This document shows, one piece after another, positions 45,352-59,600 of a stretch of 64,000 nucleotides of DNA. The DNA is from Streptomyces sp. JH14 (GTDB lineage Bacteria; Actinomycetota; Actinomycetes; Streptomycetales; Streptomycetaceae), in contig NZ_JAJNEL010000001.1 of NCBI RefSeq assembly GCF_029428675.1, forward strand, positions 4,340,001-4,404,000, read 5' to 3'. Numbering within the stretch: the stretch's first letter is position 1; each line of letters starts with the position of its first letter. The notes beneath the pieces were generated by a model. The model saw nothing but the letters and a program-made list of their open reading frames with translations. It ran no database searches and was not told the origin of the DNA. A program made the position numbers and the translations under genes.

Positions 45352-45672
45352 TCACACGCGCCCGCGGCACAGCTCCAGCAGCGTCATGGCGAGCGAGGTG
45401 CCGGGCTTGCCGAGCGCATCGCGGTACTGGCCGAGGATCTCCATCTCGCGGGAGAGGTTCACCCGGCGGCCGCCGGACGTGATCCGGGCCTCCTGGATGA
45501 CCGCCGAGACGGCCATCCGTTCCTGGACGAGCCCGATGATCCGGTCGTCCAGTGAATCGATGCGCTCGCGGGCGCCGGCGATCAGCGCTGCGGCCTCGTC
45601 GGTGCGCGCGCCGGTCTCCTCGGCGAGCGACTTCTCCGTGTTCGCGGTGACGGTGGCGGTGGTGCTGTTCAT
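45352..45672 (-). CDS. chorismate mutase (AroQ type)
   Basis: Converts chorismate to prephenate, the branch point to Phe and Tyr. A 106-aa all-helical AroQ-class mutase: [23 protein letters not shown] with the catalytic Arg/Asp pattern, then [23 protein letters not shown] and LLELCRG. The first 25 residues are Thr/Ala-rich and outside the fold. ATG 45672 follows AGGAG. The leader carries a Tyr/Phe-containing peptide and a terminator hairpin (see those entries), so expression is probably set by charged tRNA-Tyr/Phe. Divergent from guaA. Confidence 0.92.
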
Positions 45673-45738
45673 TCCGTGGCTCCTGGTGTCCTGGTGGGGT
45701 GCGGCCCCCCGGAGCGATCGGACCCGGAACGCCAGAAC

Positions 45739-45762
45739 GCCCCGGGCCTGTCGGCCCGGGGC
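45739..45762 (-). terminator. attenuator hairpin in the chorismate mutase leader
   Basis: On the minus strand GCCCCGGGCC-GACA-GGCCCGGGGC (45762-45753 / 45748-45739), a 10-bp all-GC stem. It lies 25 bases after the leader-peptide stop and 67 bases before the chorismate mutase ATG. Its 5' arm contains CGGGCCG (45758-45752), complementary to CGGCCCG in codons 14-16 of the leader peptide (45820-45814), giving a plausible antiterminator. Confidence 0.65.
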
Positions 45763-45787
45763 GCCTGGAACGTTGCTTGTCAGTGGA

Positions 45788-45859
45788 TCAAGCAGCACGA
45801 CCATGGCAGCCGGCGGGCCGGATGCCATAGGTAAAGACGTAGGTCGTGTGCTGACGCAT
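45788..45859 (-). CDS. leader peptide with Tyr-Val-Phe-Thr-Tyr run upstream of chorismate mutase
   Basis: A 23-codon ORF beginning [12 protein letters not shown] and ending at TGA 45790-45788. Codons 7-11 are TAC GTC TTT ACC TAT: two Tyr and one Phe in five codons, including TTT and TAT, which are rare in this genome. A promoter (45866-45895) would start transcription at the A of the ATG, so the mRNA would be leaderless, as is common for Streptomyces leader peptides. A terminator hairpin and a complementary segment inside the ORF follow. The arrangement is that of a classical ribosome-mediated attenuator for Tyr/Phe synthesis. Confidence 0.65.
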
Positions 45860-45865
45860 GGGGCC

Positions 45866-45895
45866 AGTATGGACCCGCTTCCGCCGGTGGGCCAA
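45866..45895 (-). promoter_or_regulatory. promoter of the chorismate mutase leader
   Basis: On the minus strand TTGGCC (45895-45890), 18-base spacer, CATACT (45871-45866), then six bases to the leader-peptide ATG at 45859. The spacing puts the transcription start at the A of that ATG. Confidence 0.6.
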
Positions 45896-59383: not shown

Positions 59384-59401
59384 GGCAGGCATCTCCTTCC
59401 G

Positions 59402-59530
59402 TGGACCGCCTACCGGGTTAGCTGTCGGGTTCGGGCGGAACGGAAGGCTGCCCTACGGTCCGAGTGGGGACATGGACCGATTCACCCCGGTTGTGCGTAT
59501 GGGTCCCCGGTTCCGAACTGCCGTGAAGGC
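59402..59530 (-). ncRNA. ydaO-yuaA (c-di-AMP) riboswitch in the NlpC/P60 leader
   Basis: On the minus strand the leader contains CGGAACCGGGGACCC, then CCGGGGTGAATCGGTCC, CCGTAGGGCAGCC and GAACCCGACAGCTAACCCGG followed by GGTAGGCGG. The GGGGUGAAUC, GUAGGG and CAGCUAACCCGGUAGGCGG segments in this order are what I recognise as the actinobacterial ydaO motif, which senses c-di-AMP and controls resuscitation and cell-wall hydrolase genes. Its end lies just before the GGAAGGAG ribosome site at 59400-59393. Limits are approximate. Confidence 0.82.
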
Positions 59531-59600
59531 AGCCCGGATTCGGCGCGGGCGCCCGCTCGGCGTGGATCGCCTCGAGGGAGTACGGGCCGCCCGTCGGAGC

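Follow-up and report, generated by a model that had tools for sequence, protein, structure and literature searches.

A ribosome-mediated transcription attenuator, by which the supply of phenylalanine and tyrosine would control chorismate mutase (CM) through a leaderless leader peptide, is very probably present upstream of the CM gene of Streptomyces sp. JH14, as judged from sequence. Its reading frame, its codons, its alternative pairings and its linkage to CM were found by computation to be conserved. Ribosome-mediated transcription attenuation is a textbook mechanism, and the CM leader is a case of this known type for which no description was found. The analysed stretch of 64,000 nucleotides is called the window below, and the following parts were located in it.

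45866..45895, minus strand: candidate promoter with a -35-like TTGGCC (45895-45890), an 18-nt spacer and a -10 CATACT (45871-45866); from sequence
45788..45859, minus strand: leader-peptide ORF, putatively leaderless, ATG at 45859; from the ORF list, orthologs and third-position G+C (GC3)
45827..45841, minus strand: sensor codons 7-11, TAC GTC TTT ACC TAT; from TTT/TAT conservation
45796..45848, minus strand: leader hairpin (anti-antiterminator) in which codons 4-6 pair with 20-22, plus arms of codons 11-18; from the MFE structure of the full leader
45752..45820, minus strand: antiterminator, CGGCCCG..GGC.GCC.UGG (codons 14-20) with the terminator 5' arm; from folding
45736..45765, minus strand: terminator-like hairpin of 13 bp with a 4-nt loop and a weak U-tract; from folding
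45352..45672, minus strand: monofunctional CM of 106 aa, the predicted controlled gene; from NCBIfam and Pfam

The promoter, the ORF, the five codons and the complementary CGGCCCG and CGGGCCG motifs had been named in the original prediction, and all were present on the minus strand where it had placed them, with CGGCCCG at 45820-45814 (codons 14-16), CGGGCCG within the 5' arm of the hairpin and a gap of 6 nt between the -10 CATACT and the leader ATG. The terminator had been described as a 10-bp GC hairpin; the hairpin with CGGGCCG in its 5' arm was confirmed, and its length was corrected to 13 continuous pairs (45765-45753 with 45748-45736, G-U allowed). The CM gene (45672-45352) scored 123.5 bits against NCBIfam NF005894 (cut-off 73) and 30.1 bits against Pfam CM_2 (cut-off 27), which makes it an AroQ-type chorismate mutase (AroQ being the label for the Pfam type II), and the four solved relatives that were found are all named chorismate mutase. 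On the other side of the leader lies a divergent guaA, named from its own sequence. A pattern search for a second copy of the leader in the genome of the window, with up to 3 mismatches allowed, returned 20 matches, among which only the leader itself was exact; the other 19 were all at the mismatch limit, and a reversed control gave 27. No match was found in a plasmid collection. Elsewhere in the window, a c-di-AMP riboswitch (RF00379) was recognised at 59391-59555 on the minus strand with 75.3 bits (gathering score 38).

Homologous leaders were collected via relatives of CM and via RNA models. The CM-relative scan gave 391 confirmed loci; the best 80 were kept, 77 of them titled Streptomyces, and the use of this name for carriers of the leader rests on these named loci. 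The leader was found directly upstream of CM in 79 of these best 80, the exception (L028) being a contig with no more than 92 bases ahead of the CM match, so that the leader region is cut off. The 79 named leaders and that of the window were combined into an RNA model (R1), with matches at E<=0.001 in 179 of 249 family genomes, across 17 of 17 genera; outside the genus, matches in a phylum sample were confined to 11 of 296 genomes, with at most 30.7 bits. The 67 lowest-scoring among 150 R1 matches listed were taken as a divergent set from this one family sample, and the leader was found in all 67 loci. An in-frame start was sought in each leader, a start with a -10-like box being preferred in the divergent set. 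The 79 named leaders, the window leader and 66 divergent leaders form the set of 146 used below, with L153 as the 147th. A second model (R2) was built from 80 leaders; the 97% filter had left 95, of which 15 near-identical Streptomyces leaders were omitted.

Conservation of the Tyr/Phe codons in orthologous leaders, which the original prediction had proposed to look for, was strong. Codon 9 was TTT in 145 of 146 leaders, codon 11 was TAT in 145 of 146, and the residues F-[T/S/I]-Y-G were kept in 146 of 147. The remaining leader, L153, has FTFG; it reads FRFWFTFG, with TTC at the place of codon 9 and TTT (Phe) replacing Tyr. The proposed sensor Tyr-Val-Phe-Thr-Tyr thus holds for Phe9 and Tyr11, and its first residue is not typical: codon 7, two before TTT, encodes Phe in 124 leaders, Tyr in 10 and another residue in 12 of 146, so that Tyr7 of the window represents a minority state. 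TTT and TAT had also been called rare in this genome, and TTT accounted for 3 of 322 Phe codons, TAT for 33 of 340 Tyr codons, in 33 window ORFs, which were chosen for high GC3, a choice that itself depresses T-ending codons.

The leaders start with ATG in 140 cases and with GTG in 6, and a -10-like hexamer (A at position 2, T at position 6) precedes the start codon by 6 nt in 87 leaders, by 7 nt in 58 and by 5 nt in 1. A strict -10 pattern was found 5-7 nt before ATG in 134 of 146 leaders, versus 1 of 1121 window ATGs on both strands. According to text passages on S. lividans, transcription starts lie on average 6.3 nt downstream of the -10 hexamer (PMC8079986); therefore, the leader mRNA is probably leaderless, and its 5' end would be the A of the ATG or an adjacent nucleotide. 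From the start to the sensor codons, G+C amounts to 96% at third, 48% at first and 43% at second codon positions. The residues neighbouring the aromatic codons drift while the aromatic codons are fixed, and a GC3 of 96% under such drift strongly indicates that the frame is translated. In 146/146 leaders the stop codon comes 42-57 nt after the TTT codon begins, ahead of the terminator stem. A +1 shift after the sensor codons was seen in 6 of 146 leaders, the downstream RNA still being retained; in L007 a second inserted T creates a new stop near the old stop position. By this comparison, the leader is conserved as RNA rather than as peptide after codon 12.

The window leader folds at -72.5 kcal/mol (z -6.2), and 0 of 200 shuffles were equally stable. 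In the MFE structure of the complete, unmasked leader the leader hairpin stands alongside the terminator, and its internal loop holds most of the sensor codons. The effect of a ribosome was modelled by masking: each leader was folded up to the terminator loop after removal of the RNA upstream of the assumed leading edge of the ribosome, given as an offset from the start of codon 9, and a leader was counted if the region of codons 12-24 formed 10 or more pairs with the terminator 5' arm. The count was 144, 146 and 146 of 146 with the edge at +7, +12 and +18, and 59, 16 and 0 at +24, +33 and +45 (the stop codon); when masked to the stop codon, not even 5 leader:arm pairs were formed in any of the 146. 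For a ribosome placed at codon 9 or 11, folding predicted 10 or more leader:arm pairs in 146/146 leaders. As far as folding goes, terminator and antiterminator appear mutually exclusive, the choice between them being set by the position of the ribosome.

The predicted antiterminator consists of about 16 leader:arm pairs and an apical stem beside the stop codon. In the window it is composed of CGGCCCG:CGGGCCG, GGC:GCC, GCC:GGC and UGG:CCA, followed by an apical stem, GCUUG/CAAGC, that caps it and adjoins the stop codon (-38.7 kcal/mol in total). The pairing of codons 14-16 with the terminator arm, as originally proposed, was borne out by the masked folding of all 146 leaders, and the 7 bp concerned are only the outer end of the structure. 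The complete ribosome-mediated attenuator that had been suggested is thus supported by codon conservation and by the folding switch (146/146 vs 0/146). In the unmasked truncated RNA, the antiterminator was already the MFE structure in 53 of 146 leaders, including that of the window; therefore, the off state would need the ribosome or folding kinetics. The U-tract of the terminator is weak, with a three-T run in 71 and a four-T run in 15 of 146 leaders, and in the window the terminator is a long GC stem with the tail CTGGCGTTCCGG. Actinobacterial terminators frequently lack a U-tract.

For the controls, 36 representatives less than 92% similar to each other were used. At least 10 pairs with the GC-rich arm were formed by 36/36 real leaders (mean 16.6), compared with 2871 of 7200 dinucleotide-shuffled ones (mean 7.3). 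In energy, 576 of 7200 shuffled leaders folded at least as stably as the real ones (mean z -2.4), and the window alone reached z -4.1 with 0 of 200 shuffles. The apical stem by itself gave p<=0.05 in only 7 of 36 representatives (mean z -1.0).

Covarying stem pairs, the other feature to be sought according to the original prediction, did not appear in the alignments: no pair with double compensation was present in the 66- or the 80-leader alignment, and RNAalifold recovered the long antiterminator in neither set. Alignment covariation is absent or uninformative because the core of the antiterminator barely varies. With a nearly invariant core and a linker of variable length, the analysis relied instead on per-sequence folding, exchanged halves and shuffles. 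A single compensatory case was found in L033, where CGGTCCG faces CGGACCG (CGGCCCG with CGGGCCG in most leaders). In the exchange test the halves of the antiterminator were swapped between species in 20000 permutations, the statistic still including relatedness. With 36 representatives, the true pairing was equalled or surpassed by 1 permutation for the whole structure, by 2 for the apical part and by 379 for the outer part; with 25 representatives these counts were 367, 34 and 3677, respectively. The test was weak with 11 more distant representatives (777 whole, 718 apical, 1271 outer) and in a first run with 6 (202, 732 and 2401). Single cases and swap tests support the predicted pairing.

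The leader is closely linked to CM. All 67 divergent loci have CM downstream of the leader and on its strand, the CM match being 159-436 nt away from the leader start. In 9 of these loci guaA is not divergent and lies downstream on the same strand, and in 4 others no guaA is found within the stretch. As the orientation of guaA varies while that of CM is constant, the leader travels with CM and not with guaA. Among the 249 family genomes, R2 matched 172 (E<=1e-5) and CM 173 (E<=1e-10). The two genome lists were compared by hand, giving 169 genomes with both, 73 with neither, 3 with the leader only (G081, G102, G212) and 4 with CM only (G087, G096, G209, G220), so that leader and CM are jointly present or absent in 242 of 249. 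In G220 the contig begins inside the terminator, and in G212, which lacks CM by scores, CM adjoins the leader, which is L153. Of 14 leader-less genomes that were checked directly, 13 were without CM at E<=0.001, the other being G220. Leader and matching CM are both absent from G116, G174, G006, G059, G063, G022 and seven genomes of genus g14. A locus titled Microtetraspora glauca (L079) carries a Streptomyces-like CM with the leader, and could be a mislabelled strain.

For the CM leader, we infer from its sequence the following start site, termination and response to amino acids. Transcripts would start with the A of the leader ATG or a directly adjacent nucleotide, and ribosomes would translate this leaderless mRNA while it emerges. 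With ample Phe-tRNA and Tyr-tRNA, the ribosome would reach the stop codon and cover the inner part of the antiterminator, upon which the GC-rich terminator could form and end transcription ahead of CM. If charged Phe- or Tyr-tRNA ran short, the ribosome would wait at codons 7, 9 or 11, break the leader hairpin and free codons 14-20. These could then pair with the terminator 5' arm before the 3' arm is made, and the polymerase would read into CM.

Since the folding switch would answer any ribosome paused in codons 7-11, the same leader could also sense slowed translation in general, as under antibiotics or starvation, instead of Phe/Tyr supply; whiB7 and other actinobacterial uORFs are described as doing so in text passages of PMC13236596. 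We regard this as unlikely, however, as the aromatic codons are fixed while their neighbours drift, the controlled gene is specific to Phe/Tyr, and Phe/Tyr/Trp clusters recur in leaders of different sequence that precede CM or DAHP synthase. Even less probable is a non-coding cis-acting RNA (a riboswitch or a protein-bound leader) with an incidental ORF. Such an RNA would account for the high nucleotide conservation beyond the sensor codons, which survives frameshifts, but not for the GC3 of 96%, the fixed distance of the start codon from the -10 box or the stop codon that invariably precedes the terminator. Nor does any Rfam family reach its gathering score at the leader: in the whole window the sole match at this score is the c-di-AMP riboswitch elsewhere, and all 7 matches at E<=10 in the 371 bases around the leader are below it, the best being psaA (E 0.01, 20.2 of 50 bits).

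The leader might finally be a constitutive hairpin without regulatory role that merely sits between guaA and CM, and consensus scans for promoters (sigma-70) and terminators indeed picked up neither at the leader. This explanation deserves hardly any credence, given that the leader stays with CM in the 9 of 67 loci where guaA is downstream on the same strand, and that leader and CM co-occur across the family genomes. If the Phe/Tyr-controlled attenuator is the correct reading, Streptomyces and its relatives would own a sensor specific for Phe/Tyr where the pathway branches towards these two amino acids. Many antibiotics draw on the aromatic pathway, and the leader could therefore be a simple handle for strain engineering. 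With its near-invariant UUU/UAU codons, one could test directly if the sensitivity of an attenuator is tuned by codon choice.

An attenuator of aroR-aroF in C. glutamicum has reportedly been described by Neshat et al. in 2014. Text passages of PMC11802643 present it as a leader peptide that contains Phe-Tyr-Phe and precedes an enzyme of the aromatic pathway, with stalling raising transcription. By this description, it resembles the CM leader as an actinobacterial aromatic leader peptide; it differs in controlling DAHP synthase and in its reported response to Phe and not Tyr (PMC11802643). E. coli pheL-pheA is similar in that charged Phe-tRNA is sensed and chorismate mutase activity is controlled (same passages, PMC11802643). 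However, pheA is a bifunctional CM-prephenate dehydratase of a proteobacterium, whereas the window gene is a 106-aa monofunctional CM, and the window leader, unlike pheL, would have no room for a Shine-Dalgarno sequence if transcription starts at the ATG. Leaders of the same kind occur in Streptomyces itself, in front of trp, ilv, leu, met, thr and ala genes, and most are described as leaderless (PMC8079986, PMC1262725). They concern other amino acids and genes, and among the eight given in table 4 of the S. lividans study none is for Phe/Tyr or CM (PMC8079986). A 2005 survey, in the passages concerned, reported no conserved RNA structures upstream of the phenylalanine/tyrosine operons of Actinobacteria (PMC1262725), and the CM leader, if its proposed role is true, would be a sensor where this survey reported none. 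The literature searched (titles, abstracts and text passages, including PMC8780764 and PMC2965389) gave no description of the CM leader, which supplementary tables might list, and the word chorismate is absent from the main texts of the transcriptome papers on S. coelicolor and S. avermitilis (PMC4895711, PMC8780764).

Related leaders were also found in other actinomycete families. In a class sample, R2 matched 99 of 345 genomes at E<=0.001, 32 of them in the genus of the window, and many of the matches outside this genus cover the terminator part only. From the 67 non-family genomes with R2 matches, 20 were fetched. CM lies downstream in four of these, from three families, with the aromatic clusters SYFYYG (L217), RFFYYG (L218), AYFYGTGFFY (L224) and RFFYGY (L235). 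Twelve further aromatic leaders from two families were recognised, namely FWRFYGY in L219, L221, L222, L225, L226, L230, L231, L233 and L234, RFFSYG in L223 and L232, and FLFWYG in L236; an example of an aromatic leader peptide with its terminator hairpin is MQRNFWRFYGYRP. The next gene was alike in nine of the twelve, those that were read (L226, L231 and L233 were left out), and the next genes scored, after L219, L223 and L236, were type I DAHP synthases (3/3). In L220 the R2 match is on the wrong strand and the opposite strand carries FWRFYGY, and in L227, L228 and L229 no such aromatic leader was seen by eye.

CM and DAHP synthase are known partners in related bacteria. We tentatively suggest that an actinomycete-wide family of leaderless aromatic leaders may guard CM or DAHP synthase depending on the family, moving between both enzymes, with the wobble codons UUU/UAU purposely kept as slow sensors where genomes otherwise shun them; this broad reading is somewhat less likely than not. 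The 16 non-family leaders that were folded form 9-16 leader:arm pairs each with the ribosome on the aromatic codons, and 11 of 16 have at least 12 such pairs unmasked too. The CM leaders of the three other families show the same kind of pairing in folding with other sequences, and divergent arms still pair, as GAGCCCGG with CCGGGCUC in L224 and GGACCCG with CGGGUCC in L236.
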